Shown piece after piece: positions 28,583-61,620 of a stretch of 64,000 nt of DNA. A program made the position numbers and the translations under genes. The notes beneath the pieces are model-generated. The model worked only from the letters and a program-made list of their open reading frames with translations. It ran no database searches and was not told where the DNA came from. This DNA is from Lunularia cruciata. Lineage: Eukaryota > Streptophyta > Marchantiopsida > Lunulariales > Lunulariaceae. The first letter of the stretch is position 1; every line of letters starts with the position of its first letter. The DNA lies in the NCBI GenBank assembly GCA_948567375.1, contig OX419760.1, positions 6,696,001 to 6,760,000 of the forward strand. The letters run 5' to 3'.

Positions 28583-28590
28583 TATATAAG
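28583..28590 (+). promoter_or_regulatory. TATA box for the secreted-protein gene
   Basis: TATATAAG is a strong plant TATA consensus about 195 bases upstream of the chosen start codon. It would place transcription start near 28615 and give a 5' leader of about 170 bases. Confidence 0.55.
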
Positions 28591-28783
28591 ATATTCTTAT
28601 CATGTACAGACTTAGTGTGTATGCCAGATGACGATGATCATCATTTCTTGTTGAAATCTGTCCCAAGACTTTTACTCTTGTTGCTTTTGTGGATTCAGGA
28701 ATTACATCTAAAGTTCAAGAAGTCCGGAGAATTTTGTTCTCGGTGCAGCGCGTTGAGTCAGCCTCCAGAAATTGTTCAAAAAC

Positions 28784-31489: not shown

Positions 31490-33392
31490 TGTCATGCCAT
31501 TTGTAGTGTTGCATCTAGATTGCTCGGACATTGGAGTTGCAGTGATAGTAGTTAGAGGTATCTTAGCAATCACTCATAGATTTCTTTCAAACGGTCAGAT
31601 TTTGTGTTTGGGGTATTGTGAGCCGGCCTGTCTCTCACTCAGGATGAACCTCTGATGACTATTATGGTAGCGCACCATAGACTAAGAAGGCAAGGAACCC
31701 CAACTCTATCATACTACTCCAAGGCTAACACTCCAAGACTCAAGACATTGCTCACTAAAGAACTCAATGAGAGAGAGATAATTGCAAATGAAAGGATGAT
31801 GAGTACCTCCTCACCCCTAGTTTATATACTTATGAAATAGTTACACATCAAAGTTACTAATTACTGGAGTAACTCAAGTTACTAGGCTAAAAGTCAAGTA
31901 AAGTCAAAAAGTAGAAAGGAATATCCATCCACATGAGCATATTCCACTAAGCATGTGATCTTTTCTTGACCCAACCATTAAGTTAAGGATTCCTTCACAT
32001 GGACTATCCTTGGACTATAGAAGAATCCAAAACAAAAAGGCTTGCGGACACAAAAGTTCTCAACTCTTTCCTCAAAGTGAAAACCTAGGAGTAATACCAA
32101 GTCAACACACTAGAATTTAAAATAGTGGTGCTCATCTTTTCCACTTCCTCTAAAGTAAGGTCCCCACCATCTTAGCTATGACTAACTTTAGCTAATCATG
32201 ACTAATGTGGAACTATCCCTTATCTCTATATAAATAATATCTCTCAAGTATTTGTAATACCAAGCTAAATATCATAATACCACACACATGTACAAATGGG
32301 TGCTACAATACTGACTTCATGGTGGAGCCCACCATCACTTTGCACCATTTGCACAATTGGTGAGCCGTCAACAGGATGGTTAGGGTTTCAGACCTAGCTC
32401 AAGTTCAGGAGTATACTTTCAAAGTGCGGAGCTCACTTCTTTGGTGTTGAGCCTTCAAGTTCCTAACTATAGTGGACAGAGGCCAACGAGCATCATCTGG
32501 ATTCTCTTACCTAAAGTGGGTGTGGCTTGACTTTAATCAATGCCCAATTGTTGGTAGTTTATAGAGTGATAGATCAAGTATTGATCCGAGTTGAGTTGAT
32601 CTAAGTGATGTAAATAAACTAATTACATCAAAGAAGTCAAGTCAAGGGGAAATTGGGTGCAAGAACTATGAGTGTTGGTGGATCATTGGTAGCTTGATCA
32701 AAGTTCAAGTTTTCCTTGGTGTGCAGAAGCTCATTGATTGATGCAAATTTGGTAGTGAGGTAGACGGTGTGTGGAAGTGCTGGCCAAATTTTGAGCAAAG
32801 AGAAGCAATTTTCAAGCAATGGTTGTGATTTTGAGCTCAAGAGGTGAAAGCAAGACCAATTTGTTGCAAGTTAGGCTCAAAAAGTGAAATTGAAGGTGGA
32901 GTTGGGAACTTATCTTTGTGAATTAGTGATTTGGAAAAACTCATCATTTCAGTTTGGCTCGAGTGGAGAGTTAATGGAGGATTTGGTGGTCAGCCAACTT
33001 TAGGGTTTATGTCAGATTTTTGCTAGAGTTTAAGTCAGATTTTGGCCAGATTTGGAGGAGTTTTGAAGTGGCAGATTTTTAGCCTGAGTTGGAGGAGTTT
33101 TGAAGCGGCAGATTTTTAGCCCGAGTTGGAGGAGTTTTGCCGGATTTGGAGAGGGTTTGAAGTGACAAGAAAAAAGGCCTCATTTGGCATTTAGAGGCTT
33201 CAAGGCATAAGGCTGTGGGGTATGAGAGGCTACAAAGGCCTAGAAGGGCTAGCTTGTTGGCGTGAGGATAGCTAATTTAGAGTAGATTTTGGTCATCGGT
33301 TGGCAAAATCTGCCCATATTGCTAGATTGTGTGCAATAGGGTTTAACCCCTACATCTTTGGTTCCTAGAATGGTGCCCTAGTCAATTAATCA
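31490..33392 (+). repeat. M-family LTR fragment carrying an inserted G-family LTR
   Basis: 31490-31616 and 32308-33392 match, in opposite orientation, the 5' part of element M (60311-60185 and 59494 to about 58385). The G-family LTR at 31617-32307 sits at exactly the same position and relative orientation as in element M. The fragment ends at 33392 against the LTR of element G. A tRNA-like stretch lies at 33335-33388. Confidence 0.75.
31617..32307 (-). repeat. Solo G-family LTR inserted in the M-family LTR fragment
   Basis: This is a 691-bp LTR with sense strand minus (TGTAGCACCC...GGCTCACA). It is flanked by GTAT (31613-31616) and ATAC (32308-32311), each one base from the GTAC pair that flanks the equivalent copy at 59495-60184. 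Confidence 0.85.
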
Positions 33393-34084
33393 TGTGAGCC
33401 GGCCTATCTCTCACTCATGATGAACCTCTGATGGCTATTATGGTAGCACACCATGGACTAAGAAGGCAAGGAACCTCAACTCCATCATACTCCTCCAAGG
33501 CTAATGCTCCAAGACTTAAGACATTACTCACTAGAGAAATCAATAAAAGAGAGATAGTTGCAAATGAAAGGATGATGAGTACCTCCTCATCCTTTGTTTA
33601 TATACTTGTGAAATAGTTATGCACTAAAGTTACTATTTACCACAATAACTCAAGTTATTAGGCTAAAAGTAAAGTAAAGTCAAAAATTATAAAGGAATAT
33701 CCATTCACATGAGCATATTCCACTAAGCATGTGATCTTATCTTCACCCAACCACTAAGTTAAGGATTCCTTCACATAGGCTATCCTTGGACTATAGAAGA
33801 ATTCAAAACAAAAAAGCTTGTGGACCCAAGAGTTCTCAACTCTTTCCTCAAAGCCAAATACCTAGGAATAATACCAAGTCAACACACTAGAATCCAATAT
33901 AGTGATTCTCATCTTTTCCACTTCCTCTAGAGTAAGGTCCCCACTATCTTAGCTATGACTAACTTTAGCTAATCATGACTAATGTGGAACCATCCTTTAT
34001 CTCTTTATAAATAATATCTCTCAAGTATTTGTAATACCAAGCTAAATATCACAATACCACACGTAGGTACAAATGGGTGTTACA
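33393..34084 (-). repeat. G 3' LTR
   Basis: This 692-bp LTR is full length with perfect ends TGTAACACCC (34084) and GGCTCACA (33393). It defines the LTR family also seen at 30922, 31617, 46467, 59495, 61640 and, degraded, 21500. Confidence 0.88.
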
Positions 34085-35666: not shown

Positions 35667-37699
35667 CTGTCTAAACTAATAACCTCCATAAACAAATATT
35701 TGACACCGGTCCAGAAAATGCCCCCTACTTGAACTAATAACCCTCTATTGGTTGACATTCAATATTTTTTATTGGTGCAACAACTTTTGTAAACTAATAT
35801 ACACTACATAAAAAAAAAAAAATTTGGAATTGCAGTTGGAAAATATTTCCTAATTGAATTGGAAATAATCCTTAATGCCCCTCTGGACCATCTAGTGCGT
35901 CCTCAGAGTGCCCACGCTCTCCTTCATCTTCTGCAATGCCAAGATGAACTTGCCATTGTTGCCTGCTTGCTGGAGCCAGAATGTCTCCAATGATTGGATC
36001 ATTGCCTGAGCTTCCTTGGCTGACACAAGAATGACTTCCTTGCTATCAGCATCATTGGCCTCGCCTTTGTCATCATCTTGGAGAAGATGATCTTTGATGT
36101 TAGGAGTGTAGGTAACCACATCTTCATGTGGGTAGTTGAGTCAATTACAGATGTCCATCAGATTGCGGTATCAAAGCCTTGTGATCAGAGACTCAAACTC
36201 AACAATGACTTCTTGATCAACAATTTCCTCTTTTTTATGTTGTTCCTATTGTGTGCTAGGAACAATGTGGATTTTGTAGTGACCAAAGTAGTTGCGGATG
36301 GTCTCAGGCTTGATGTCATTATTCTAGGCGGGAACAACCATCCTCATGGCTTCAAGGATTGTCAAATTTTTCCGGCTCGGTGACTCCATCTTCAAGATGT
36401 TGCAAAAGGACACACTTAAATTGGTGATGGTTGTAGGCCTTCAGATTGTGGATGATTCTAGTGTTGCAGGTCTGCAACTTTGAAGTTGTGTTTAGGGGAA
36501 GGTAGAAAACCACGGTGTTTTGCAGTTGAATGAGGCTTGGAAGCTTGTGAAGAGGGATGTGGGCGCTACAATTGTTAAGAATGAGCAGAACTTTCCTATT
36601 AGCCATGCGGCAATCAAACGCTTTGAGCCACTCCAAAAAAACTGTCTGTGTCATCCAAGCCTTGGAATTATTATGATAAGTGCAGCCAAGGCTGGCCATG
36701 TTGATGTTCTTGAAGCATTGCAGGATTTTGGATTTGCCAATGGCCAAAAGGGGAAGTTTGTCAAAACCGTCTCCATTGCAACAGATGGCAAGGGTCAGGC
36801 GCTCTTTGTGCTACTTTTAGCTCTTGAGCTGCTTAGTTGCCAAGGAATTGTCTGCCTAAATGAAATAATAAGTGTTTGTGTTAGCTTGCCGTGCTAACCA
36901 CACACCAAAACAACCCAAACCAAAATGTGACCAACTTGCATTTTGTAAAAAGGTCCCATCTCATCCATGTTGTAAATGTCATGCCTCTCAAACTTATCCA
37001 ATATCTCCCTAATTTTGGGTCGCTCATCCTCAATGAGATTGACGTCAACATATCCACTCTTGCCAAAGCGGCGGAATGAGCGGATTCCATGGTGAGCCTT
37101 GAAGGCTTCTAGCCATCTATTGGAAAACTCAAAGTGGGCATGATCTGCATAAAGGCAATCTAAGATTTTTACGCTGCTCTCCTTGATCAGGTTGCCACTC
37201 ATGTTGATGCGCTCTTGGTTTGCTATGAACCATTCCATCAAAGTAGATTCCATCAACAAATATTTCACCATCCGCTGATGCTTTGCAAAAAGGTTGGACA
37301 AGTGAGCCTTCTTGAGCACATCAGCCCATTGCTTCAATGTGGTCAAGATCATAGCCTGGCTGACCTTGACACTATGCTCAATTTCAAGCCAAGACTTGAG
37401 TTGATTTTGTGTGAGGGTAGGGTTCTTCTGTTTGTGCTCACAGAGAGCAATGCGTGCTTTATGCAACATTGTGGTGTGTTGTGCTCCAAGGCGAGGCATG
37501 GTGGTGATGGTGTGTTTGTGGTGTGTTGTTGGGATGGGTTTAGACTGATTTTGGGGTGGTCTCAAGTTGCAAAATTATCCCCTTGATAAAAAGAATCAAT
37601 TAAGTTAATCATATGGGTCACCTTGTCTAATGTAATAACCTCTATAAACTAATACTCAACCCCTGGTCCCATCAATATTAGTTTAAACAAGTTCTACTA
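35667..37699 (-). mobile_element. Tigger/pogo-type DNA transposon inserted in element G
   Basis: About 2.0 kb of Tc1/mariner-superfamily DNA lies within the RNase H region of G. The ends resemble each other as inverted repeats: the left end reads CTGTCTAAACTAATAACC and the right end, inverted, reads GTAGAACTTGTTTAAACTAAT. The shared core TNTAAACTAATA is typical of plant pogo-like termini. A TA flanks each end (about 35665-35666 and 37698-37701), as expected for this superfamily. TTTAGACA also occurs on both sides, but I take it as partly fortuitous because the terminus itself contains TCTAAA. Inner copies of TAATAACCTCTATAAAC lie near both ends in direct orientation. Confidence 0.75.
35892..37499 (-). 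pseudogene. Tigger-like transposase with CENP-B-type DNA-binding domain, inactive
   Basis: The frame starts at an ATG giving MPRLGAQHTTMLHKARI. The first ~70 residues hold the helix-turn-helix (NQLKSWLEIEHSVKVSQAMI), and a CENP-B/Tc5-type helix-turn-helix follows (YLLMESTLMEWFIANQERIN, then FSNRWLEAFKAHHGI). The DDE domain begins with the first acidic motif IYNMDEMGPFY. The frame then closes after about 200 codons, at 36894. Downstream pieces carry the second motif LLILNNCSAH (family DNCSAH) and the third PLNTTSKLQTCNTRII (family QPCDAGII). The second and third catalytic aspartates are thus both replaced by asparagine. The C-terminal tail (35892-36119, KEAQAMIQSLETFWLQQAGN) is recognisable. 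With frame breaks and two lost aspartates this copy cannot transpose itself. Confidence 0.85.
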
Positions 37700-40029
37700 T
37701 AGTGTCTAAACTTCTTGAGACCAAAGCTCACTGCCAACCCTTCTATCTTTATGACAAAGTAGTTCTTTTCTATTGGAACCATTTGCCTACTAGCATAAGC
37801 TATTGGAGGATCATGCACATCTTGGTCTAATTGACTAAGAGTGCATCCTATAGCTACATTAGAAGCATTAGTGTAGAGGATGAAAGGCTTACTCCAATCA
37901 GGTTTAGCAAGAATTAGAGCTACAACAAAGGATTGCTTGAGCTCCTCAAAAGCTTTGAGAGGCTGCTTGTCCTCCAAAATCACCATGTAATCAACACCCT
38001 TCTTCATGTAGATGATCAATGCATAAGACTTCTTGGAAAATGAGAAGATGAACCTCCTATAGTACCCAACAATCCCCAAGAATTGATGTAACTTTGTCAA
38101 GCTTGAAGGGAATGGAAGGTCTAAGATTTTCCTCACCTTCTCAAGATCAACTGCTATTCCATCCTTGGAGATGATGTGCCCCAAAAGTTAACCTTCTTCA
38201 TATCCAAAAGTGCACTTCTCTAGGTTGAGTGATGCATTTGCCTCATCCAAGCATTGCAAGACCTTGATTAGGTGCTCAAAGTGCTCCTCCTTGCTCCCAT
38301 AGACACAAAATTCATCAAGGAAGTCTCTCACAAATTTCCCAATGAAAGGTTCAAATACCTTGTTCATGAACTGTTGGAATGTCGTTGGAGCATTGTAGAG
38401 CCCAAAAGGCATGACCTTGAAAGCGTAAGTTCCCCAAGGTGTGGTGAATGTGATGAGTTTTTTATGCTTTGGTGCAATCTTGATTTGGTTATACCCATAT
38501 AACCATCTCCAAAATTGTACTTCTCATGACTGCAACCTCCTCCAAGATCTCATCCATGAATGACAAAGGGTAACAGTTCTTCTTAGTAACAACAATGAGC
38601 TTCTTGTAATCCACCCATACCCAAAGCTTACCATTCTTTTTCTTCACAATCACAATGGAAGATACCCATTTTGAATTCTCCACCTCAAAGATAAATCCGG
38701 TCTCCTTGAGCTTATCAATCTCCTCCTTCACCACCAAAGATATTGGTGGGCTAATGCGACATTGCTTTAAGCAGACTAGTCTTGCATGTGACTCCATCTA
38801 AATCTTGTGCTCCTCCAAGGTAACTTCCTTGAGATCCTTGTAACTGAAAGCAAACACATGGATGAACGTGCAAAAACTCTCCTCAAATCTCACCTTCTCC
38901 TCCTTGATAACATTTGGACCATACTTGAGAGTAGATAACCTCCTTTCTATCTCTTCAAGTGTCAATGGTAATTTATTTGGGTCCTTCAAAACCTCTAGCT
39001 TAGGTGCCAAATCCATAGCACACAAGGGATACTCATTTGAATCAAATTTAGATTCATCCTCCTCCATGGAAGTCTCCTCCTCCATGTGTCCACATCTGAG
39101 GCTCCTTCTTTAGAATTTGATTCCCAATAATCAAAAGATGATTTATCTGAATGTGAAGTGTGGTGGTGTTAATGATTGGAATTGTGACTCTATGGTTTGA
39201 TGGCCCAATCCACAAGTACCCTTTGTGCCATCAATCAGTTGTGCATGCTGCTCTCAACCATGGCCTCCCTAGAAGCAAATCATAACTTGAATCCATCAAG
39301 ACTTGAAAAGTCATGAGATTTTGAACTCCCATAACTGAAACTACCACCTTATCCATCACCCCTATTGGTCAAACTTGTTGCTTGGTTGCCATGCTCACCA
39401 CAAATGTTGAAGGTCTAGAAGTTATCATACCCAACTTCTTCATCAAGCTTTCTAACATGGCATTCACTATTGATCCTCCATCAACCAATGCATCCTTGAT
39501 GTTGTGACCATTCACTCTCACATCAATCTTGGAGTCATATTCACAAGCCTCCCATGGTGCTAGGTTGGCATCCACCACCCCCATTCATACTAGAGCTTTT
39601 GTCTTCTTCTTCTTCTTGCTCTTTGTATAACTAAACTCACTTCTAAGCTCCTTTCTCAAAGTAGGATTCAAAGCAATCAGTTTGCCCACTATGATGTTAG
39701 CCTTGTGACTACTAACATCCTCCAAGACATTGTAGTTCCATTGTTGCTTTGAGATCAAGAAGTCCTCCATCTCCAACTTCTTCCTTGGAGTCTTTGTTGT
39801 TTATGGTGTTGAAGTGCTTGTGCGGGTGCTCCTAGTAGTCATAGGAGTATCTTGGCTAGGAGTAAATCCTTGAGAAGAGTGCAGATCCTATGCAAAACAA
39901 GCTCTCTTCTTCTCTTGTGCCAAAAGATCCAAATGAAGGCCTTTGGAGTTTGAGCACTCTCCCTTCTCATACTTTTTGTCAACCACATCTATGGATGCTA
40001 TCCCCTTACCTTTGTTTGGATTAGGAGCT

Positions 40030-44869: not shown

Positions 44870-47600
44870 AGAGTTTGAAGATGAACATTGCATCATGAAG
44901 AAGAAAAACACCTAAAGATCCAATCCACTTTTGACAAAACTAAATAGGAGGCGTTGGACTTTCAACTTCTTCACAAAGTTCAAGAAGCCTTGCAAGAACT
45001 TGAACAAAAGAAACATGAAGGTGGTTGGCAAGGCAATTTCTTGTCTCCCTTTGCCAAGAAGAAGAAAGACTCGAGCAGGTAGATATATTCATTACGACCC
45101 AATACATTGACTTCCACTAAAGCTATAAAAGAAGTCAAATTTATCAAGAAATGTGTTTGGGAAAAGATAGCACAAACACTAACGGAGGAAGAGTGTCAAC
45201 ACTTCTATACACAATTCCTTGATTGTCTCAAAGGAATTTTGAAGAACATTTCAAAGGTGTTGAGCCTTTTTGTTCTACTCATGTTGAAGTCAACATAATC
45301 AGAGAGGAAGTAATTGTCAAAGAAGAACCAATGTTGAACTTGACTAATTGGAATCCTTGGGCTGTCAACACGGTGTCCATACCAGCCAGCTCCTTGGCTC
45401 CCTCAAGTTCAACGTTACCACAGCTAAATCCCCCAAGTTGAATAATGACTTTGCTACTTGTCATCCGACACACGTATCAAAACTACAAGAGGACAACAAG
45501 ACAAATATCCCAATGAATTCATCGACAAATTCAAAGTCATTTCCTGTGCAAATAAGGAACATGACTTGGCGGATTGCTTGAGAATTTTCCCAAGTCTGCT
45601 CCAAAAGAAGGCTCAGAGTTGGTTCACTCATGTAACCTAGAAGGGGTTCATACCGGCGGACAAGGTAGACTTGAGAAACAATTTCTTGGAGCGCTTTTGG
45701 GAGGTTGATTATAAGATGAGTGTCTTTGTGGTGCTCAACAATTTAGACAAAGGCAAGAAAGTGAAGTTGAGAGACTACTCTAAGTGGTTCAAGTGGCTCT
45801 TGAACCAAGTCCCAAAGCAATCGGGTGTGGTGGGTTACTCCAATGCCCAAGCCATCATTTGGTTCTTGGGAGGACTTTAACCAAAGATTCGGATATTTGC
45901 TAGGGAGAGGAATGTAACTTCCTTGGATAAGGTACTCAAACATGTCGCCCGCTATGAGGTGACTCACTCTCACTTTATTGGTAATCAATGACATCAAGAG
46001 AAGAAAGGCAAGAAGCCTAGAAGAAGAGCTCCTTGCAATACATCCATTTCTTCAAAGGAATCCTCCACATCTTCAAGTTCTACTTTAGAATCCAAAGAAG
46101 AATCAAAGCTAAGAAGAATACAAAGATGTGGAAGTAAGAAACCATTGACACCCCCAGCTAAGAGTGTACATAAGGTAGATACCAAGCTGGATGCTCTTAT
46201 AAAAGAGTTTTTGGATTTTAAGATCTAGATGATTGGGGCAAAGGGCCGAAGGAAGCCTCCATCATTCGGCAGATCCAATGTATGGTGCACCATGTATGGC
46301 AAGTCAGGCCATGCAAACACAAAATGCAATACTCATAATGCATTTTTGGTGCAGCAGATTGGTTGGGTTCCGGGATTGAACCAAGAAGAGGAAGAGTAGA
46401 TGATGTACCAAAATCAAGAGGTACCACCTCAGGCAAGCACATTGTACCAAGGTCCGAGTTTTGGACTGTAAGCCGGCCTGTCTCTCACTCAGGATGAACC
46501 TCTGATGGCTATTATGGTAGTGCACCATGGACTAAGAAGGCAAGGAACCCGAACTCCATCATACTCCTCCAAGGCTAACACTCCAAGGCTCAAGATATTG
46601 CTCACTAGAGAACTCAATGAGAGAGAGATAGTTGCAAATGAAAGGATGATGAGTACCTCCTCACCCCTTGTTTATATACTTGTGAAATAGTTACGTACCA
46701 AAGTTACTAATTACCGTTGTAACTCAAGTTACTAGACTAAAAGTCAAGTAAAGTCAAAAAGTAGAAAGGAATATCCATTCACATGGGCATATTCCCCTAA
46801 GCATGTGGTCTTATCTTGACCCAACCACTAAAGCAAGGATTCCTTCACATGGGCTATCCTTGGACTAAAGAAGAATCCAAAACAAAAAGGCTTACGGGCC
46901 CAAGAGTTCTCAACTCTTTCCCCAAAGCCAAACACCTAGGAATAATACCAAGTCAACACACTAAAATCCAAAATAGTGGTGCTCATCTTTTCTACTTCCT
47001 CTAAAGTAAGGTCCCATCTATCTTAGCTATGACTAACTTTAGCTAACCATGACTAATATAGAACCATCCTTTATCTCTATATAAATAATATCTCTTAAGT
47101 ACTTGTAATACCAAGCTAAATATCACAATACCACACACATACACAAATGGGTGTTACAGGACCAAGGTAGTAAAATCTCAATGCTCCCCCACAAAGACCA
47201 CCGATGAGCAACCAAAACCAACCTCAGAATGTTGCACCCAGAGCATGTTACAATTGTGGCTCGATGGGACATTGGTCTCCAAACTGTCTGGAGCCAAGAT
47301 AGAAAATTGGGTATATTCCCTTGTGTAGGAATTGTAAAGGATTGGGTCATCTGGGCAACCAGTGCCCTCATCCACCAAACTCAAAGCTGCTTGTAAAATA
47401 TGTACAAACCCCTGTTGAGCGTGCTGCACTTCAAGTGAAAGGGGATACAAATATAAATTTTATAACACTTGAGGAGGAGAGACCTCAAGAAGGAAGCCCG
47501 CCTCTGAAGATGAATGGCTAGACCTCAAAATTTTGAAGGTTGAGACGTGCACAAGTAAGAAGAAGCATGATCTTGAGGATTTGAGTATGACCTCTTTGTC
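44870..47600 (+). pseudogene. Gag region of element L
   Basis: The capsid part lies at about 45500-45880, with KKAQSWFTHV, LRNNFLERFWEVDYKM and NQVPKQSGVVGYSNAQAIIW. It is followed by a basic linker (46000-46240) and zinc-knuckle sequence (46270-46330, then 47230-47370 with CYNCGSMGHWSPNC and CRNCKGLGHLGNQC). The G-family LTR at 46467-47158 interrupts the stretch between the knuckles. Decayed. Confidence 0.8.
46467..47158 (-). repeat. Solo G-family LTR in the gag of element L
   Basis: This 692-bp LTR has sense strand minus (TGTAACACCC...GGCTTACA). The four bases GGAC occur on both sides (46463-46466 and 47159-47162), a clean 4-bp target duplication. No internal sequence remains, so it is a solo LTR formed by recombination. 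It is later than the insertion of L. Confidence 0.9.
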
Positions 47601-48119: not shown

Positions 48120-51100
48120 AATTTGGGATCTCCCAAAGTTGATGCGGAGATCAAAGAGTGCATGATCACATTGATACCCATTGATTTAGGTTCCAATATG
48201 AACTTCATGACCAAAGATACTACAAATAGGATGGGGTATCATACGTTTGAGCCAACACCCCAAGTTTTGAAATTTGTAGACCAAACTAGGAGATGGCCAT
48301 TGGGCATGCTGTCAAACATTACCACAATCATTGGAGGGGTGCCCTTCAAGTTGAATTACATTGTGTTGCAACCAATGGCCAAAATTGGTTACCCACTATT
48401 GATCGGAAGACCTTGGTTGTACAATGCCCAAGTTGTGCATGATTGGCACCAATAGAAGTTGCGGTTTAAGGACATTTTGTCCAAGGACCAGAAGTTGGTG
48501 ACCATGAGTTGGACAAAGGTTCCCCATCTCAGGGAAACAAGTTTGTAAGAAGATGATGACAAATCCAAAGACTCATTATCTTCATCCTCAGAAGATTCCA
48601 AAGACAAAGTCCAAGTCAATTACTTGGAATGTTACAAGGTGGACGTGGAAGACAAAGATCCATATGATCTCACCTCGGGTGAACATGACTTGGAGGAAGG
48701 AGGTTTGATGGTAGCTCGACTTAGACTGAGCCAAGTGAGTCATGCCAAAGGAGTCATCAACCCCAATGACTATCAGATGTTGTCATGACTGAAGGAAAAA
48801 ATTTAAAAATTTTGAAGACAATCACTTCGGAGGAGTTGGCAGGATACACAACCCTAATTATAGAATTCCAAGATGTATTTGTCTGGTCTATTGATCAAAT
48901 GTCATGTATTCCAAGCAAATTTGGAGAACACTAGATTGATTTGGTTGAAGGTGCAGTTATGGTTTGGCAAAGACAATACCGCCTAAACCCAAAGTACTCA
49001 CTCTTGGTGAAGGATGAAATTGACAAGTACTTGGAGGCCAGAATAATCTTTCCTATCTTGAGCAGTGAGTGGGTCTCGCACATTGTCATTGTCCCAAAGA
49101 AGAAAACGTGGAAGATTTGAGTGTGCCAAGATTTCTACAAACTGAATGCAATCACAAGGAAGGATCATCATCCCTTGCTTTTTACCAATACGATTTTGGA
49201 CCAAGTAGCTGGTCATCCTTGTTATAGTTTTCTTGATGGATTTTCAAGGTAGAATCAAGTATCCATCCAAGAAGAGGACAAGGATAAAACTACATTCACT
49301 ACCAATTGGGGCACTTTTGCCCTTTGGGTTGTGTAAATTGTCCTTTGGGTTGTGTAATGCTCCCGCTACTTTCCAATGGATGATGAATGCAATCTTCAAG
49401 GATTTCAAGCGCAAATTTGTGGAAGTCTTCATTGATAATTTTTGTGTGTTTGGGCAAAGAGATGTACATTTGGATGACCTTTGCCAAACTTTTGAAAGGT
49501 TCTATTTTGCCAGTTTGTCATTACACCCAAAGAAATGCTTCTTTGCAATGATAGAGGGAATTCTTCTGGAGCATCAGGTGTCAAGCCAAGGTATTGAACT
49601 CGATGTTGAGAAGGTAAAATTTATCTCAGCTTTGGAATCCTTGAAAAGCATCCAAGAGTTGAGAGCCTTCTTAGGACATGTTGGATACTACAAACACTTT
49701 GTTTCAAACTACGTGGTGCTTGCTACACCCTTACAAAGCTTCTGAAGAAGTCCAAAGACTACCTATGGGAAGGAAGTCAAGAAGAAGCTTTCTAGGTATT
49801 GAAGATGAAATTGGTTGAAGCACCAATCACAAGGGCTCCAAATTAGGAATGCCTTTTTCATGTATATGTGGATACTTTGTCCATGGCAATTGGAGTAGTC
49901 TTGAGTCAAAAGGACGACAAGAAGAAGGATCACCCAATCTATTACGCCAGCCGACAACTTTCAGTTTCAGAGAAGAACTATTTGATGACTAAAAGAGAAG
50001 CATTTGGAATGGTGTATGCCTGCAAAAAGTTTCACCACTACTTGTTGGGATACGAGTTTGTCTTCTATGTTGACCATTACGCGTTGCAACATTTGGTCAA
50101 GAAGGCAGATTTGTATGAGCAAATTGCCATATGGATCTTGTTATTACAAGAATTCACATATATTTTACAAATAAGGAAAGGAACTTCACATTATAATGCG
50201 GACTTCTTATCTAGGTTGGAAACTCAAGACCAAGAATGGGAGATCAACAATTGGTACCCTGACAAAGAGCTATATTTTTTGATAGCAATGCGAAGTATGA
50301 GGTATGCAGCCAAATATCACTATTTTCATACTCTCTAGTGTCTTGCTGGGCTCAACTTGGAGCAAAGGGCAGTCTTTCTCAGGAAAATGGGACCATATCA
50401 CCTGAAACACAACATTTTATTCAAGATGGGCAAAGATGAAATACTTTGGCGATGCTTGGAGTCATACAAAGTAGGAGGAGTAATTGAGTCTTTACACTTT
50501 GAAGGAGGACACTATGCCCTGAAGAATATTGTAAGAAGATTCTTTCATTGGGGTACTGGTGGCCTACAATGTATAAAGACACACATGCCCATATTCAAAG
50601 CTATGACACTTGTCTGAGAACAAGAAAGCCAACAACTACTTCCCAATGGCCTTTGAGACCAATTTTACCATTGGTCCTATTTGAGAAATGGGGAATTGAT
50701 TTTGTGGGATAGATACAACCAATCACCCGTGTCACGAGAAAAAAATACATTTTGGTTTGCATGACTATGCTACCAAGATGGTCAAAGCTGAAGCAACTTG
50801 CAGAGATGATGCAAAAATAGTGGCATAATTTTTCTTTTGAAATATCATCTCCCAATACGGATGTCCTTTGGAATTGGTCAGTGACAAAAGGACACATTTC
50901 TTGAATTGTGTGATAGAGCCATTAACCAAATACTTTCAAATTAAACATCGGAAGACGACTCCTTATAATCCAAAAGCAAATGCCCTAATGGAAAAGGCAA
51001 ATGGGTTACTCTGTAAAATTCTGAATAAGGTGATTGTCAATTATGCCTATGATTAGGATACAAAGTTACCAGCCACATTGTGGGCATATTGCACAAGAGA

Positions 51101-51609: not shown

Positions 51610-53455
51610 TGTGGTACCCACATTTTTTTTTTTTTTTAATTTTTGAAGAAGTGTACAGATAAAGTCATATTATGCTTGTATGACATCAGAAGGCAAAGAA
51701 TGGTGTCTTTGAGTTGTAACCCAAGGAAAAGTTACTCAGAAGATGAAGTACTCGGATTGGCCTTGTCAACATTCAACCTAAAGTAAGGAGACTTCGGCTC
51801 GGGGGTGCTCAGCCCGAGGTGAGGACAATGTAACAACTTTCCTTTGGGGTTGGACATTCAAGAAGGTACTGCACACAAAAACAGCTGGCCTATGAGCTGG
51901 AGAAAATTGATAATGATAGGAGCATGAAGGAGGTGTGATTTCTTGATAGAAACTCAAAGTGAAGAAAGACGGAGGCAGCATGCCACTATAAGAATCGGGA
52001 TAGAGACAAAGAGATGACAAGTTATTTTCCATTGCCATTAAGGATTCATCTTGAAAGAGATCATGGAAAAGGAAGTGTAGTAAGAGACACCGTGGTATGC
52101 AAGAGAAAGTTAGGAGAGTTAGTTGGAGAATCAGTCGGAAGAGTAGCCAACAACCTAGAGTGGAAGAGAGTAAGATGGGAGGTGGGAAGAAGAACTCAAA
52201 ATTCATAGTGAGAAATCATGCAATTTGGAGGTTAGATGTGATCGCAAGAATTGAAGTCTTGAGCAGGCTTCAGATCATGGCATGGAGCTAGAAACACAAA
52301 GGCCAATGGGGAATACGATGAGTCCGAGTCTAGAAGTTGCTCCAATTGAACGGGAGGTGAGAAGAAGGAAGAAGAAGTCGTGGCACGACCACAAACTGTA
52401 GTGTGCACGCAGCCGAGGTAGGGCCCAGTAAAGTTGTCATGGAAGAGGAGGAAAGCTTGGATGGTGAAACCTTGAAAGTACAAAGATCACAACTTTGGAG
52501 TAAGGTGCAAGAAGTAGAGTTGCTAGAAGATGAAGGCCGAGCCAATGACAAGAAATGCGAAGGGGTGGAGTATCTATCAAAGGTAGTATATCCAATGTTA
52601 GTGTTTTTGCAGCAAATGAAAGTAGAGATGGTAAGTGCCAATCTCAATGTGCATGATGAGTTGGCAGTAGTGAAGACGTGGAGTACAAAAATCTTGTTGT
52701 TGCAAAGTAAGTTAGCGAGGGTGGAGATGGAAGCCAAAGAACTTTGGGTTGAGGAGATTCTTTGGAGTAAGCACTTTGAAGTGATGAAGGAGGATTTAGT
52801 AGAGTGTCAAGAGGAGGAAAAGGAGATGATGGCCTCGGTTGCGGTGTTGAAGGGAGAAATCACAAATGCCCAAGTAGAGTTAATACACCCAAAGGCAAGT
52901 ACAGTAGTGATGGAGCAAGAATTGGAAAGTCTCAAGAAGAACGATGTTGAGAAAGATCAAGCCTAGCAATGAGAGTTAGCAGAGCATGGTAGAGAAGAAG
53001 ATTGATTGCAAGGATTGGTGCGGGTAGCAAAGGAGCAAATCTCTATGAATCAGAGGTTTTAGGAGGCATTGAAGGCTGAATTTGAAGACGAGCTCTAGAT
53101 GTATAGTAATGAATTGGAGGAAGAAAGGAAGAAGGAGAAGCTCAAGATCGTAGGAGAAGCTGATGAGGTAGTCGAGGAAGTAAATGAAATCAAGGCAATG
53201 TTGAGCACTGAAGTTGAAGGTAAATTGAGGAAGCAAGATTGCATGAGCTGAAATTATTGGTAAAGGAGATGCACAAGCAACAGGTGAAGGACACGGAGTT
53301 GAACAAGTTGTTAATTCATCTACAAGAACTTGTAGAGAGGAAGATAGTAGAGGTAGGAGACAAACAAATAGTATTGCCAGAGGTTGACATCTTCTCCTAT
53401 TTGGAGGAGATTGATCAGAAGACAACCATTTCAAGTTCATACTGATTGGAGTATG
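51610..53455 (+). repeat. L 3' LTR, truncated by element M
   Basis: This starts TGTGGTACCCACATT plus a T-run, as in the E 5' LTR. It shares blocks with 40030-43800, including the coiled-coil reading frame (52440-52965, and about 53239-53445 with the HELKLLVKEMHKQQVKD stretch). It stops at about 53455, where M-family sequence begins. The terminal ~1 kb of the LTR is not found further right in the window. Confidence 0.75.
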
Positions 53456-53924
53456 TTGGGGCTTGGAGCGGTGCTCACCTAACATTATGATGAGGGGAAG
53501 GAGTTTGTGGTCACCAGTTTGTACAAAGGGTATTGTCCCAAGTACCCTTTGTAATTGTCGTAGGCATGGAATACTTATTGACTGGCTGCTACATTGGGCC
53601 CTTGAGAGTAGTAGTGTCATGCTCCCGACCACTAGAGGTTCCAACCTCTGAGTGAAAAACTCCCTCCACTCTGGCTGCAAGCTCCACACGTCCTCTAGCT
53701 GCATCCCAAGTGGACCAAGGGTGTAACTCAAGTCGCCCACGCTCACCTAGACGCTCCAAGTATACCACTCTCCCTAGTAGCTATTCATTGTGTCCCAAGA
53801 ATACCATGTCCACTCAGTCCATCGCCCCCAACATGTGCTTGAATTGTCTCGATGGGCACAGGGCTCACAAGTGTCCGAGTGGTGATGCCTATCAAGTGCA
53901 TCCTATGCTGCTATGCCAAACCAA

Positions 53925-54905
53925 GGCTCACAATCCAAGTCAAACAATTCAAGTCCATAGCCTGACCTAATACTTGACGCTTGGATTCCTTTGATATTGT
54001 TAGAACAACGGTAATACTAGTGCAAAAACCCATCACCCACTCTCTCACATCGACATTGGGCTCCACTAACTATTGTAATTGTGAGTCCCAAACAAGTCCA
54101 AGTCCTCCCTCTCAAAAAGCAAAAGAGCCTGGGAAACCCATAAGTGTGGGAAAAGCGGGTCTAGGCTATCCAACTAGGTTCACCATTGCCATAGATGACT
54201 TATCAACCACTACCACCATTTGAGACTAATGCCCCATATCCAAGATGTCATCAACAAGGACGTGGTCTAGTCGCTTAATCCCATCATATGCACGTTGTAG
54301 AACCTCTCTGGGTAAGAGGTTCATCCACCAAAGACAAAGACGATGAGCCCGTGATCCCACTTTGATTGCATCTAACAATACAATAGGTCCCATCCAAGAA
54401 TGGACTTGATGTGTACTCACCACCACTTTGGTGCAAGAATTACCCATCAAAGGAACATTCTCCAAAAGGTAAGCTGGAGAAACGGACTGATTAACTTGGA
54501 GATGTTGTAGTATTTGTAACATCTCCCAAAATACACAAGAACAAGGAATCTAAAGACCCAAACCTTGACCAACACATGTATGTCCTTGAAATGGCCATCC
54601 AAAAATCACCAATTGAATAGGCTCATGTCTCTCCAGATCATGCGCCCCAAGTAAGGAAATGTTTGTTAGTAGGGTCTTTTGGTAACCTTTGATTGCTAAC
54701 ATTGGTAAAAACTCCGGATACCAATAGGCCAAGCGTGCCACATGATGTAGAGAGACTCACCTAGCAGTCCCATCTCTCTCCACATACAAGTACCTCTGTA
54801 TTCATATACCCGCCTATAGGACCATAGCTAGTCTGGTGCTAATCCCACCGAACAACTCCAATAGACATACTCCCTCTATTGGATATTGGCAAGCAATGAG
54901 TGTGG
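53925..54905 (-). pseudogene. Cytosine-5 DNA methyltransferase domain of element M
   Basis: The conserved C5-methyltransferase motifs appear in the canonical, unrearranged order. Motif I (SAM binding, LLELFGGIS) is at about 54826-54864. Motif II (YLYVERD) is at about 54772-54792. A motif IV-like loop of the GWPxQGH type is at about 54578-54608. Motif VI (YLLENVPL) is at about 54445-54471. Motif VIII-like SRAHRLRLWW is at about 54322-54352. A motif IX-like stretch (EPNVDVREWVMGF) is at about 54020-54065, and a motif X-like stretch (VLGQAMDLNCLTW) is at about 53930-53975. Motif order and spacing fit a whole catalytic domain of about 320 residues. Which host methyltransferase class it derives from cannot be told by eye. 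The copy is decayed and not functional. Confidence 0.8.
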
Positions 54906-55249
54906 TATCCAAAAGTGTCAAGGTAATCAACTTTGAAGGCTCACCCTCACACTCATCTCCTGGTGGTACAAAGGCTCCACTCCAAGCCTATTGCACCAAC
55001 CAATCTACATGTTACCGCAATGCCTCCTCTAAACTCCACAAAGGAACATCCAAGGTGGATGAAACAATCCCACTTGTACTCCAAATCAGAGTGATCTCCT
55101 ATGGTACTAGAGTATCTTCTGCATGGGAGTTCCTCTCCAATAAATCACCAAGCCAAGTAATGGCACCATTGAAAGCTGAAACTAAAGTTGCCATGGTCCC
55201 GTACTATAGTGAGCCAAGACTGCCACTACTAAAGCGTACTAGTAGGTGA

Positions 55250-55940
55250 CATACTCGTCCCTCACAAGACTATCAACCTGGTCTATAGGAGGCTATCTCC
55301 TCCTAATAATCAATACTAAAATGCATGGGATACAACATTGCTCTCCCAACTAGCACATCATATGACTCAGCTATTGTTGCAATAGCTTGAGCTCTCACCA
55401 ATGAGCTATCAATAGGATGACCAAGTTGAACTTGGACAACAAGCTCACCACATGTGATGTATTGTGTCAAACCATCACCTAGAGATGTCTAGATCTGAAA
55501 TGGACACCTTTTCACATTGGTCTTCCGTAACTCCAGACCAACTATTGCAACCTTCTCCAACATACAAGGCTGCTCACCAGAGTCTAATAAGACTCTCTAT
55601 GGTGTATAGACCTTCCCTAAAGGTCCCACCAAGCGGAAAATCCCCCTTTGGTTATCCAATAGGACAAGACCAGGTGTGAATTGCACTCTCTCAAAGGCTG
55701 GTCTAGCTGGCAACTCCTCTTGTCTAGCCGTTGTTGCCTACCATAAACCACTGGATGCTGAACGGATCCCATGCTCGTCAACCAAGTTAGCTCCACTATC
55801 AACCACCTCTACTCTAGTAGTAGGAATTGCATCATCCCTACTCTCACAAAGCATGGTAGCCAACCGGAACACTAGGGCTGGGTCAACTCCCAATGTAAAC
55901 ATGTCACTGGCTGAAAACAAAGGGCACCGCATAATCAACT
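55250..55940 (-). pseudogene. Protease-like region of element M
   Basis: Between gag and the methyltransferase the minus strand reads VLLDSGEQPCML (about 55570-55605), the retropepsin D-S-G signature. It is followed by SYDVLVGRAMLYPM (about 55330-55370), the hydrophobic-glycine loop near the end of such proteases. An upstream stretch ends in RVEVVDSGANLVDEHG. This places the element among retrotransposons with a gag-protease block. Decayed. Confidence 0.7.
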
Positions 55941-56059
55941 AAGTTGCCCCAAACATCATGCTTGACTTAGTCTATGTAGTAGTAGGTGGTTGACTAGTAG
56001 GTAGTCCATCATGCACCCCATCACCACCTACCACACCTTCACTGGGACATCTAGGAGCC

Positions 56060-57290
56060 ATGGATGTTGTCTGCAATGCCTCATATAGCATGAAAGATTA
56101 AAGAAGTTTGACCTGCCTCCCAACCTCTCTTCTTTGTAGGTCCAACTCCACTAAAGCTCCTCTAGGCTCTAGAGCATGTACTGCACTCCTAGTCACAATT
56201 GTAGATGCATCCACCTGTGCTGCTCTGCACATGAAGTCCAAAGCATCTCTGTCACCAGCATATGAGGTGGAAGCCTCAAACACCCGAATCTGATTTCCTT
56301 TGAGCAATGGCCATACTAGCCAATCTCTGTTCCAACTGCTCAATCTGAGTAGCCATAGTTGTATCAAAAGTAAGGGTAGGTACTGCACTCCTACTAGGTG
56401 TAGATCCTTTATCACCACCTCTACTACCTTGTCCTCTATGAACTAGAGCTCCTCTACTACCTGCCATAACAACCCTACCACTCCTTAACTCCGGGTGTAG
56501 GTCAAAGTACTAATCACTAGTGTGACCAAATTTGTGGCAATGCTCACACTACCTCTATGCTAGCTGTGATGCACCAGAGGTATCAAGTCCATTGCCCAAA
56601 GTACACTCTCTCCTATGATGAGGTCTACCACAAGTCCAACAAGCAACACTACCACTCATTGGTGACTGTTGCTGACCTGAAAAGGAAGGTAAGGGTCTAA
56701 CTACAATAGGCCCTCCACTTGCTCCATAGGATATGGGCTATCTACCCTATCCTTGAAAACCAATTGGACGTGGTGCACTTTGCTGCACTCTAGAAGAAGT
56801 AACAATTGTGGATGAAGTCTCCCTACCAAATCTAGATGTCACCACCCTCTCCTCTACCATGTTGAGCTCAATACGCTCAGCCAAACCAAAGATCAATACC
56901 AAAGTAGGCAAAGTAGCATGTAACAACATAGCGTCACAAACTCTACGTTGTAACTCTTTGTCTAGTATCCCATACCAAAACTAGACTGCTTGGGCCTCAA
57001 TAACTCCTTGATTGAAACTGATCAGCCGCCTCATACGAGTGTATGCCTTGCATAAGCTCTCTCCAGCCTTCCATTGGAACTCATGTAAGCTCCTCAGCTT
57101 GTCAATCCGTACTCCTTGGTAGTTCTGCCTCAAACAATGAAAGAACTCCACCATGGGGTTAAACCCCGATACCACACCACCTCTTCCAATGGTACCTCCA
57201 CTTGTGGTAGCACTATCTCCAGCTAGTGCACCTCCACTAGCTCCACTAACACTACTTGAGCTAGAACTCATGGGTATAGCCGATCTACTC
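56060..57290 (-). pseudogene. Gag of element M with two zinc knuckles
   Basis: The region starts Ser/Gly-rich (SSSSSSVSGASGGALAGDSA). A capsid-like helical part follows with FNPMVEFFHCLRQNYQGVRI and WKAGESLCKAYTRMRRLISF (56981-57271), then LAERIELNMVEERVV. Two cysteine-histidine knuckles lie at about 56517-56650: CWTCGRPHHRREC and CEHCHKFGH. The C-terminal part is coiled-coil-like (TQIEQLEQRLASMAIAQ). Role: capsid assembly and RNA binding. Decayed. Confidence 0.78.
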
Positions 57291-58384
57291 CTGGCAACTG
57301 AGCATGAATTGATGATAGAGACATAGTTTGGAGACCAATACTATCTCCATAACTCAATCTCCTCCAAATGAGCTCTCTTGAACTCATGGTAGTCATCCAT
57401 TAGCAAAACCTCCAAGTGTTGAAACAACCCCTTTCATGCCATGAAAGGTGTAAACAAAGTTGGGTTCCACATCTACTGCAAATCACACCAACTATCAAAC
57501 TCTTGGATGAAGTCATCCAACTCAATGGTACCCACTATACCAGATTAATGCCTAGGGCCTTTGGAGGCCCCATAAATCTTGTCCATATCTCACAACAACA
57601 GTGCGGACATGCCAAGTGCACTCTCAGCTGAATCAACTCCTGTGTCAAACTCCAACTCAGAGTCAATCTCCTCCCTCATTGGGACTTGAGATACAAGCTG
57701 ATACCGAGTGCCACTTTGAGTAAACCCATTGCATACTATAGGGCTAACTCTTTTGGAATCCCCAAAGAACTCTATCGTGACAAAGTAACCACAAACCGGA
57801 ACCACCAACTACAACTGCAACCACAAGTACTCCACCAAGTGTCAACACTACCAAGTGCCAGCACTACCAAGTGCCAGCACCAACTAGGCACCACCAAGTG
57901 CCAATACCCATGGAACACCACCAGCTAATGTAACTCTAACTCAGATAACTACACTAGGAGAAAAGGTGACCTGTAACCTGCCATCACAACACACGCTCTC
58001 ATGGTCTGCAAGTCATCACTTTTTGCCTCACTGGAGAGAAACAAAGGTAGTCTGACTAGTCATCACTCTATCCTCACTACCAAGAGCACACCATAGCACC
58101 AATGCTCTAAATTCAGGGCACCTCACACAAACATGGTGCACAAACAAGAAGTAGAGAATGGAGGAGGTCCAATCACAAGAAATCTAAATGAAAACCCTCC
58201 ATCTCATAAAGCAACATGGGATTGACTCTGCATTGACCATTTGGCATTTGACATAAGAGAAGTTTGTATCTACGTCCTAAGCTACTAGGATCACCAAGAA
58301 TGAGATCAAACTACCTCTCCTAGCCAAAGCTACAAGTGTAGAGATAACAATGGCATAGTCACTAGGATAACAAGTGAGGGTGGA

Positions 58385-58440
58385 CCAGTTGGCTAGGGCA
58401 CTAGTCTAGGAACAAGAGATCTAGGAGTCAAACCCTATTA
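58385..58440 (+). repeat. tRNA-like sequence in the leader of element M
   Basis: CAGTTGGCTAGGGCAC resembles a tRNA D arm with A box, and GGAGTCAAACCC lies at B-box position about 40 bases further on. The equivalent stretch at 61434-61490 has a better B box (GGGTTCAAACC). A third copy lies on the minus strand at 33335-33388. It is antisense to element M. It may be a captured tRNA-derived (SINE-like) piece. Confidence 0.5.
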
Positions 58441-59494
58441 CGCACAATCTAGCAGGATGGGCAGATTTTGCCAAACAATGACCAAGATGTACTCTAAACT
58501 AGCTAGCCTCACACCAACAAGCTAGCTTGCTGGCCTTTTTGGCCCTTTTAGGCCTTTGTAGTCTCCCATAGCCCACAGCCTTATGCCTCAAAGTGTCAAC
58601 CAAATGAGGCCATTCTTCTTGACACTTCAAACCCTCTCCAAATCTGGCAAAACTCCTCCCAAATTTGCAAAACTCCTCCAAAATTACAAAATGCCTCTAG
58701 ATCTGGCCAACCAGCAAAACTCCTCCAAATCTGGCCAAAATCTGACATAAACTCCAGCAAAATCTTGACATAAACCCTAAAGTTGGCTAACTGCCAAAAC
58801 CTCTACTAACTGTTCACTCAAGCCAAATTGGAAAAAAATAGGTTTCTCTAAATCACAATTTCACGAGGGTAGGTTCCTAACTCCACCTTCAATTTCACTT
58901 TCTAAGCTCAACTCATAACAAATTGGTCCTATCTTCACCTCTTGAGCTCAAAATCACAACCATTGCTCAAAATTTACTTCTTCTTTGCTTGAAAATTAGC
59001 CAACGTTTCCGCACACCGTCTATCTCACTGCCAAATCTGGATCAATTGAACAAGCTTCTACACACTATGGAAAACCTGAGCTCCAATCAAGCTACCAACG
59101 ATCAGCAAGTCTTGGAGATACCACCAACACTTTCAATTCTTGCACCCAATTTCCCCATGACTTCACTTCTCTGATATAATCAGATTGTTTACAACACTTG
59201 AATCAACTCAACTCAGATCAGTACTTGATCTATCACTCTATAAATTGCCAAAAATTGAGCACTGATCATAGTCAAGTCACACCCACTCTAGCTAAGAGAA
59301 TCAAGGTGATGCTCACCGGCCTCTGTCCCCCATACCCAAGAAGTCGAAGGCTAAACATCAAAGAAGTGAGCTCTCTGGAGCTGCACTCTGAAAGTATACC
59401 CTTGGACTTGAATTAGATCTGGAACCCTAATGGTCCCCTTGATAGCACACTTGATGGTGCAAAATGATGGTGGGCCCTACCATGAAGTCAGTAC

Positions 59495-60184
59495 TATAAC
59501 ACCCATTTGTACATGTGTGTGGTATTGTGATATTTAGCTTGATATTACAAGTACTTGAGAGATATTATTTATATAGAGATAAAGGATGGTTCTACATTAG
59601 TTATGATTAGCTAAATTTAGTCATAGCTAAGATAGAGAGGACCTTACTTTAGAGGAAGTGGAAAAAATGAGCACCACTATTTTGGATTTTAGTGTGTTGA
59701 CTTGGTATTATTCTTAGGTGTTTGGCTTTGAGGAAAGAGTTGAGAACTCTTGGCCCGCAAGCCTTTTTGTTTTGGATTCTTCTATAGTCCAAGGATAGCC
59801 CATGTGAAGGAATCCTTGACTTAGTGGTTGGGTCAAGATAAAATCACATGCTAGTGGAATATGCCCAAGTGAATGGATATTCTTTTATACTTTTTGACTT
59901 TACTTGACTTTTAGTCTAGTAACTTGAGTTACTACAGTAATTAGTAACTTTGGTGCATAACTATTTCACAAGTATATAAGCAAAGGGTGAGGAGGTACTC
60001 ATCATCCTTTCATTTGCAATTATCTCTCTCTCTTTGAGTTCTCTAGTGAGCAATGTCTTGAGTCTTGGAGTGTTAGCCTTGGAGGAGTGTGATGGAGTTG
60101 GGGTTCCTTGCCTTCTTAGTCCATGGTGCGCTACCATAATAGCCATCAAAGGTTTATCTTGAATGAGAGACAGGCCGGCTCATA
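59495..60184 (+). repeat. Solo G-family LTR in the leader of element M
   Basis: This is a 690-bp LTR with sense strand plus (TATAACACCC...GGCTCATA). It is flanked by GTAC on both sides (59491-59494 and 60185-60188), a 4-bp target duplication. It is inserted at the same site and relative orientation as in the fragment at 31490-33392. Confidence 0.88.
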
Positions 60185-60311
60185 GTACCTTGAACATGAA
60201 ATCTGACCGTTGGAAAGTAATCTATGGGAAACTACTAAAATACCTTTAACTACTATCACTGCAACTCCAGTGTCCGAGCAATCTAGATGCAACACTACAA
60301 ATGGCATGACA

Positions 60312-61620
60312 TACCCCCATTGGTAGTAGCACCATCTCTCCAAGTAATGCACCTCCACTAGGTACACCAATGCTACTAGAGCTAGAACCTCATGGGTACT
60401 ACCGATGTACCCTTACCAATCAAGCTTGAAGTGATGAAGATTTAGTTTGAAGACCAATATTGTCTCCATAGCTTGATCTCTTCTGAGTAAACTCTCTTGA
60501 ACTCATGATAGTCATCCATTGATGTACCTTCTAATTGCTAAAAATCCCTTTCAGCCATGAAGGATGTGAACAAAGTTGGGCTTTGCATCTATTGCAAATC
60601 ACACCAACTATCAAACTCTTGGATGAAGTCATTTAACTCAATGGTACCCATTGTGCCAAAGTAGCACTTGGGGCTTTTGGAGATCCCATAAATCTCATCT
60701 AATCCCATAGCAATGATGCAAACACACCAAGTGCACTCTCAATTGAATTAGTTTATGTATCAAACTCCAAATCAAAGTCAATCTCCTCCCTCACTTAGAC
60801 CTGAGATAAAAGCTGAAACCAAGTGCAACTCCATGTTAACCCATTGTGCATTATAACAATACTTCTTCTAGAACTCCCAAAGAACTTCATCATGACAATG
60901 TAACTCAAACCGCAATTGTAACCCCCACAAGTACCCCATCAAAGATCATCACCAAGTGCTACCACCAATTGAACACCACTCACTGATGTAGCTCTAACTA
61001 TGACAACTACACTAGGGGAAAGAGAAACCTACAGCCTACCATCACAACAGGTACCCTCAAGGTCTGCAAGTCATCACTTCTTGCCTCATCAAAGAGAAAC
61101 ATAGGTAGTTTGAATGATCATCACCCTAGCCTCACTACCGTGAGTGCACCAAAGTACCAATGCTCTAAAGTTAGTGCACTACATACAAACATGGTGTACA
61201 AATAAGAAGAAGCAAATGGAGGAAGTCCAATCACAAGAATCTAAATGCAACCTCCATCTCATAAATCAACACTAGACTAACTCTACCACCATTTGGCATT
61301 TGATATAAGAGGATTTTTTACCTATTCCTAAGCTAAAAAGATCACCAAAGATAGGATCAAATTGCCTTTCTTAGCCAAAGTTACATGTGTATAAGTATCA
61401 ATCAACCAATCACTAAGACAAAAAGTGAAGATGGACTAATTGGCTAGGGCACCAATCTAAGAATAAGAGATCTGGGTTCAAACCTTATTGCATACAATCT
61501 AGAAGAAGAGTGGGTAGATATTGCCAAATAGTGACCAGAAACTATCAAAAACTCATCTCAACTAGCTAGCCTTATGTTCGCAAGTTGGCATGCTAGCCCT
61601 TCATCCAAGCAAACTAGCTT
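60312..61620 (-). pseudogene. Second fragment of an M-family element (leader to start of gag)
   Basis: Blocks such as GCACCTCCACTAG, CTCTCTTGAACTCATG, ACACCAACTATCAAACTCTTGG and TTGGCTAGGGCAC follow the same order as in 57190-58500. Similarity is moderate with many small gaps, so the copy is older than element M. It is cut at 60312 by M and ends at about 61620. No further domains remain. Confidence 0.72.

Follow-up and report, generated by a model that had tools for sequence, protein, structure and literature searches.

In the open-licence literature, as far as titles and abstract openings tell, retroelements with a de novo DNA methyltransferase (DNMT) are reported only from a charophyte alga and from dinoflagellates, and none bearing a DNMT is reported from land plants. 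The algal element, KnitGypsy-Dnmt3 of Klebsormidium nitens, is held by de Mendoza et al. (2018; PMC5890265) to have been acquired in the lineage of K. nitens. By the published description, its DNMT lies in the Pol open reading frame (ORF) and shows a Ka/Ks below 0.2, its copies are fewer than in Symbiodinium, and the legend of Fig. 4 states an A-coding-B-A-B layout (PMC5890265). The same paper attributes de novo CG methylation to the DNMT of a Symbiodinium DIRS element and reports that the LINE DNMT tested was inactive on DNA in yeast; its main text contains no mention of "PHD" or "readthrough" (PMC5890265).

Here, we describe a stretch of 64,000 nucleotides from the Lunularia cruciata genome (the window), in which a preliminary description had recognized an LTR-type plant retroelement with a full C5-DNA methyltransferase domain. 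On the grounds of identity and anatomy, we consider it very likely that the window copy is a decayed member of a Ty3/Gypsy-type family in which a Dnmt3-type DNMT is a constant part of the Gag-side ORF. This kind of retroelement is one already described from a charophyte alga as KnitGypsy-Dnmt3, with which it shares, going by the published description, the Gypsy domains, an unrearranged Dnmt3-type domain, DIRS-like repeats and the retention of key residues; it differs in the position of the DNMT, which here lies before a stop together with Gag, in its bryophyte hosts and in its thousands of sites (PMC5890265). What appears to be new from the sequences is therefore limited to the bryophyte hosts, including Marchantia, the great abundance, and the location of the DNMT in the Gag-side ORF, ahead of a stop that is probably read through. 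With SymbioDIRS-Dnmt3 and SymbioLINE-Dnmt the family has in common a retroelement-borne DNMT, which is of Dnmt3 type in one of the two, but those elements are described as a DIRS element with a tyrosine recombinase and a LINE, whereas here we find an rve integrase and 4-bp target duplications (PMC5890265).

Identity and decay of the window copy

The DNMT domain lies on the minus strand (54873-53929, frame -2), where it matches the DNMT segment of P0093, a Marchantia polymorpha protein, with 58.4% identity (8e-117, 362 bits), as against 25.4 bits for the best of 20 shuffled queries; the C5-methyltransferase domain that had been proposed for this strand is thus confirmed. Used as a protein query, the read-through of the domain gave 91 protein matches at E<=1e-3, the strongest of them at 3.4e-125 with 60% identity and 100% coverage; where a species is named, it is a liverwort or a moss (Calypogeia, Marchantia, Riccia, Sphagnum). 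A search for relatives in gymnosperms, ferns and mosses had been proposed; moss proteins are named among the matches, whereas none of the named ones comes from a gymnosperm or a fern. The motifs LFGGI, GWP(F)QG, ENVP, SRAHR and LGQAMDLN can be read in this sequence on the minus strand, in the canonical order that had been claimed. This is the unrearranged order of Dnmt3, as opposed to DRM, and the C5-methyltransferase motif numbers given to the motifs are presumed ones. In a comparison of the family profile with PDB, the best match was DNMT3A (8.4e-21); DRM2 matched at 2.5e-8, M.HhaI at 2.4e-5 and DNMT2 at 5e-4. A plant chain labelled "DNA methyltransferase" (4onj), which we take to be a DRM, matched at 2.6e-10, and the DRM chains align to profile positions 34-160 only, at the DRM C-terminal end. 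Judged by these matches, 53929-54873 (minus strand) is a Dnmt3-type cytosine-5 methyltransferase domain of a retroelement.

Pfam scans of pieces of the decayed window copy gave no methylase, gag or protease match at E<=10, and PF00145 gave none at E<=1 in a second scan, whereas PF00145 matches 13/13 other members of alignment A1 (all but the window copy). The profile search suggested for the methyltransferase therefore succeeds on the relatives and fails on the window copy, and the one suggested for the protease came out negative on the window pieces. The zinc-knuckle piece showed only a weak RING-like match (0.035), below its cut-off. That a gag with zinc knuckles and a protease-like region precede the domain on the same strand is nevertheless borne out by the collinearity of 57586-53619 (minus strand) with residues 1-1271 of P0093 (1278 aa), along which the frame is -1 in gag, -2 in the middle, protease region and DNMT, and -3 in the tail. 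The features recognized are the following:

53536..60311, minus strand: main element copy, decayed, with its 5' end TGTC at 60311 and its 3' half lost after 53536
59176..60311, minus strand: repeat arm A1 of the main copy (A-arm matches 60311-60184 and 59494-59176, split by a nested repeat)
59497..60182, no strand given: nested unrelated repeat of ~690 bp in arm A1, found by sequence comparison
56303..57586, minus strand: gag with two zinc knuckles (CWTCG... and CEHCHKFGHTSD), matching P0093 aa 1-415 with 53% identity in frame -1
55300..55680 (approximate), minus strand: aspartic-protease-like region (LLDSGEQP ... YDVLVGRAMLYPM), inside the P0093 match 56274-53821, motif identified by eye
53929..54873, minus strand: Dnmt3-type DNMT domain with 8 stops and the catalytic Cys changed to Phe (protein matches, codon alignment)
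53619..53723, minus strand: ORF1 tail (HPWSTWDAARG...) after a frameshift, matching P0093 aa 1236-1271
53583..53591, minus strand: ORF1 stop TAG CAG CCA, retained, in a readthrough-like context (same nine bases in 15/15 fetched copies)
53379..53511, plus strand: RNase H fragment from this family, in inverted orientation (89.5% DNA identity to L012 6385-6517; P0097 aa 983-1047, 57%)
60312..61602, minus strand: older copy (leader and gag start), broken off at 60312 next to the start of the main copy, ~76% identical to fetched copies, with gag aa 1-97 at 60702-60415
31490..33385, plus strand: third remnant, made up of arm A1 and leader and interrupted by a nested repeat (31617-32308)

Read in the frame of the genomic copy L009, the window copy contains 34 stops, a total that should include the stop between ORF1 and ORF2, and 8 of them fall in the DNMT; against P0093 there are 32 (24 TAG, 5 TGA and 3 TAA), with 7 TAG opposite Gln. 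Its catalytic codon is TTT (Phe), compared with TGT (Cys) in all 15 copies fetched from the genome. The domain called "full" is thus complete in extent but broken by stops and by the loss of its catalytic Cys, and on this reading of its codons the window copy is a dead fossil that makes no enzyme. The main copy aligns over ~5.4 kb with three fetched family copies (blastn, 85.6-86.2% identity); no RT of the DNMT family was found in it, and only arm A1 of the repeat set remains. As its 5' end abuts the older copy at 60312, it looks inserted into that copy. The older copy (61602-60312) and the third remnant (31490-33385, plus strand) agree with the earlier suggestion, made from a second fragment at 60312-61620, that the family was active here more than once.

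Several candidate features were rejected. The region 58389-60312, considered as a foreign repeat, is mostly the A1 arm and leader of the main element itself, and an antisense zinc-knuckle-like ORF (53656-53970, plus strand) was attributed to chance, as on the minus strand this interval encodes the ORF1 tail. The tRNA-like look of the element leader was likewise dismissed (no tRNA in 18 loci, no Rfam match in L012). The plant iMet primer site TGGTATCA is absent from both strands of the window.

Elsewhere in the window, a ~690-bp repeat family (30922-31489, 31617-32308, 33392-34084, 46467-47158 and 59497-60182; about 88-96% alike) interrupts two DNMT-element remnants by insertion, and a decayed pogo/Tigger-like DNA transposon lies at 36355-37574 on the minus strand (DDE_1 1e-35, HTH_Tnp_Tc5 2e-8). 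Other Gypsy-type RT/RNase H remnants are located at 3415-4500, 15072-15863 and 37681-38187 (minus strand) and at 49209-50335 (plus strand), and no DNMT match was found in the window beside these four. The CpG observed/expected ratio is 0.77 and 0.54 in 24001-32000, compared with 0.30 for the whole window, and this interval, which includes a tRNA-Met (25162-25233), is perhaps a less methylated, gene-bearing island. An open frame at 28757-29335 (plus strand), in a CpG-richer stretch, encodes a secreted-looking Cys-rich protein, for which no homolog was found at E<=1e-3 among 123 candidates from a search of 5.8 billion proteins.

The family and its relatives

In the 566-Mb assembly of L. cruciata (74 contigs), a 25-base pattern of the catalytic motif has 4,028 sites with <=2 mismatches (control, 0), and a 107-aa piece of the DNMT gave 8,065 first-look candidates. 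Of these, 150 were scored. Each has E<=2.5e-55, and the identity is 81-88% for all except the window itself; by a hand count, stops are present in some 46 of them. Fifteen copies were fetched from the 150 for their long open frames, and the sample is thus not random. All of them are collinear, with gag, protease (PR) and DNMT followed by a TAG and by RT, RNaseH and integrase (INT), and most carry further damage. Gag to DNMT is free of frameshifts in 11 and split in L015, L018, L019 and L020, and the largest ORF1 spans 1433 codons from stop to stop. The claim of a plant retroelement family that carries a C5-methyltransferase is upheld, the domain being a regular part of 15/15 fetched copies; to treat it as an oddity is not quite right for this lineage, where the family counts 4,028 catalytic-motif sites in the L. 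cruciata genome and has relatives among liverworts, mosses and Closterium. Taken by itself, the window might suggest a host methyltransferase gene that adjoins, or was once caught by, an unrelated retroelement, but the DNMT is collinear between the protease region and RT in all 15 copies, which refutes this reading and leaves it with next to no probability. In P0097 (Marchantia), P0105 (Sphagnum) and P0110 (Closterium), moreover, the DNMT shares one polyprotein with RT or integrase.

Five selected ORFs from the family coding regions were scanned with Pfam. ORF1 of L009 matches DNA_methylase (1.7e-5), with a sub-threshold gag match and no protease match, so that the protease rests on the LLDSG motif and the alignment; ORF2 of L013 matches RVT_1, RT_RNaseH, Integrase_H2C2 and rve. 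A PHD finger is present at the end of L010 ORF2 (1.3e-10), that is, in one of the two family ORF2s scanned, in a stretch missing from the shorter L013 ORF2. None of the five ORFs has a phage-integrase (tyrosine recombinase) match. With Ty3/Gypsy elements the family shares the order PR-RT-RNaseH-INT, the TG..CA ends and a short target duplication, while RT and INT are lost from the window copy.

A search for long proteins gave 20 matches (12 from Marchantia polymorpha, 1 each from Sphagnum fallax and Closterium, and 6 without a species name), and no protein named as K. nitens occurs among these and the 91 matches to the DNMT. The domain order varies: gag-PR-DNMT and then RT is found in the bryophyte elements and in L051, DNMT-RT-RNaseH-INT in the Closterium protein, RT-RNaseH-DNMT-INT in both P0106 and P0107, the latter having a PHD finger as well, and RNaseH-DNMT-INT-PHD in P0109, of which the RT end is missing. 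L051 (CADCWO010000201.1), a 9.2-kb contig whose ends overlap, is a DNMT-bearing Gypsy-type element; it is assigned to a cyanobacterial MAG, in which it is probably an algal or plant contaminant. Its DNMT is about 50% identical to that of the family (50% to P0001), its RT-RNaseH 54% to P0097 and its whole gag-PR-DNMT 33% to P0093. Five metagenomic proteins (P0010, P0012, P0017, P0018 and P0020) constitute a second, well separated DNMT group, 41-45% identical to the window read-through, and in P0012 the DNMT is preceded by a protease-like stretch.

Marchantia groups with the Lunularia-genome sequences in both the DNMT and the RT tree, but the two trees differ in where they place L051 and P0110. 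As the DNMT tree comprises 34 element-type sequences, with only DNMT3A and a phage enzyme as outgroups and neither plant host DNMT3 nor K. nitens, and as several of its deep supports are weak (0.13-0.49), it has no power to show a single origin of the DNMT. In viral contigs, 1 relative was found among 46 matching stretches, at 27% identity, which indicates no close viral source there.

For the 15 copies, which had been pre-selected for long frames, dN/dS is 0.40 in gag, 0.39 in the PR region, 0.42 in the DNMT, 0.80 in the ORF1 tail and 0.25 in RT-RNaseH; the value of 0.75 for INT comes from a stretch that may run past the coding end. Within the DNMT, dN/dS is 0.37 for variants in at least 2 copies (15 synonymous, 17 nonsynonymous), 0.68 for private variants, and 0.47 outside the query piece. 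These values modestly favour constraint on the DNMT; over longer times, the ENV Glu is kept in 72 of 83 database proteins. A moderate dN/dS could also fit a structural or passenger domain without enzyme activity, as could the fact that the catalytic Cys is missing in 6 of 58 relatives. However, the Cys is present in the other 52 of the 58 database proteins with a letter at that position, and the codon is TGT in 15/15 fetched copies. In addition, the 50% identity of the DNMT to that of the distant L051 is near that of RT-RNaseH and above that of the whole gag-PR-DNMT, and we regard an inactive domain as very unlikely.

The internal stop and the element ends

In all 15 fetched copies, ORF1 and ORF2 share one frame and are parted by a single TAG followed by CAG CCA. 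The sequence UAG-CAR-YYA is the readthrough consensus of the tobamovirus type. The UAG CAG CCA of the family and the UAG CAA UCA of L051 both fit this consensus, and as at the viral stops the frame continues; the difference is that here the putative readthrough stop occurs in a Gypsy-type plant retroelement. Deamination of CAG to TAG was considered as the source of the stop and rejected: among the 880 sites that have the exact 18-base stop context genome-wide, 874 carry T at the first position of the stop and only 6 any other base (C in 3), which implies that the stop has not arisen copy by copy in this way. In L009 the first ATG of ORF2 lies at codon 48 past the stop, while similarity to the Marchantia protein begins ~29 codons past it, and in L051 the in-frame TAG CAA TCA is followed by 109 codons without Met. 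Because the stop is fixed, the frame is shared and distant similarity is found before any ATG, the stop is probably read through. The first 46 codons past the stop have a dN/dS of 0.76 with few differences, which by itself does not support coding there. If the stop is read through, the DNMT is on the abundant Gag side.

The ends of the elements do not correspond to the "LTR-type" of the preliminary description. Instead of an identical LTR at both ends, there is A at the 5' end and B-A-B at the 3' end, and 14 of the 15 fetched copies (the exception is L019) show split repeats in the order A1 - coding - B1 - A2 - B2. A1 is about 449 bp (540 in L013) and B1 95-118 bp as aligned, the outer ends read TGTC...GACA, and in most fetched copies the inner junction is GACA-GC-TGTC, that is, the element's own ends joined. 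Genome-wide, the B-GC-A junction has 1,863 sites with <=2 mismatches over 25 bases, and 16 junction bases, CACGACAGCTGTCACG, also occur in the non-coding part of L051. Target duplications of 4 bp are exact in 12 of 14 copies, with a C/T difference in L021 and no match in L009; in L022 the duplication was read at the true end, as the automatic end call had fallen on the inner junction.

DIRS/PAT elements have split direct repeats, a tyrosine recombinase and no target duplication. The A-coding-B-A-B repeats and the internal end-to-end junction are similar to theirs, but in the present family a DDE integrase takes the place of the tyrosine recombinase and target duplications are present. As far as domain matches and ends indicate, a DIRS-like repeat layout is here combined with an rve integrase and target duplication.

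Methylation footprint and possible roles of the enzyme

Within one copy, A1 and A2 differ by 0.67-3.8%, which would mean a recent spread, provided that the two arms were the same when the copy inserted. Over 14 arm pairs there are 125 differences, of which 109 are C>T or G>A and 16 other; of the 109, 52 are in CG, 46 in CHG and 10 in CHH context, and 1 is unclassed. This excess at CG and CHG points to methylation of the copies after insertion, although the host enzymes MET and CMT alone, without the element enzyme, can explain it. The footprint also bears on self-restraint, in which the DNMT would mark new insertions for silencing, limiting the damage and allowing survival of the host, an idea also raised in the published account of the algal and dinoflagellate elements (PMC5890265). 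The near-confinement of the arm changes to CG and CHG (98/109) and the very high number of sites would agree with it. However, CG and CHG marks are expected from MET and CMT anyway, and, as copies compete, reduced transposition is not a trait that is easily maintained, so that we consider self-restraint unlikely.

The Gag-side position of the DNMT predicts that it is packaged with the replication intermediate. Most ribosomes would stop at the TAG and produce Gag-PR-DNMT, and a few would read through to give the full polyprotein, such that the DNMT would be packed in Gag-like amounts. Newly made cDNA of the element could then be methylated by it, probably at CG, ahead of insertion by the integrase; the insertion would arrive already marked, and maintenance enzymes of the host would preserve the mark. 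To rebuild the element ends, the internal B-GC-A junction might serve as a template. It is plausible, as had been proposed, that the element alters how its own DNA is methylated, and methylation of its cDNA by its own DNMT is quite possible, if somewhat short of probable.

Packaging with the intermediate would also fit a DNMT that shields the RNA or cDNA from host attack, such as deaminases or recognition as foreign, and has no lasting role at the insertion; such shielding has been discussed for the described elements (PMC5890265). Other Gypsy remnants in the window lack a DNMT match, which speaks against a need for protection of this kind. Moreover, we know of no bryophyte host deaminase or restriction of unmethylated cDNA, and this alternative seems doubtful to us.

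Returning to methylation of the element's own cDNA, we tentatively propose, as a whole less secure than its parts, one old streptophyte Gypsy lineage, instead of several captures, that would package a Dnmt3 at Gag level by readthrough, methylate its own cDNA, rebuild its ends from an internal circle junction and integrate by a DDE integrase, and that, with thousands of copies in L. cruciata, may shape the host methylome. Cytosine methylation is a weapon of the host against transposons, and an element with a de novo methyltransferase is hence a puzzle. The probable readthrough stop, the Gag-side DNMT, the split repeats and the DDE integrase together yield clear predictions on packaging and end formation, and as family members are present in Marchantia polymorpha, with its strong genetics, the puzzle is open to experiment.
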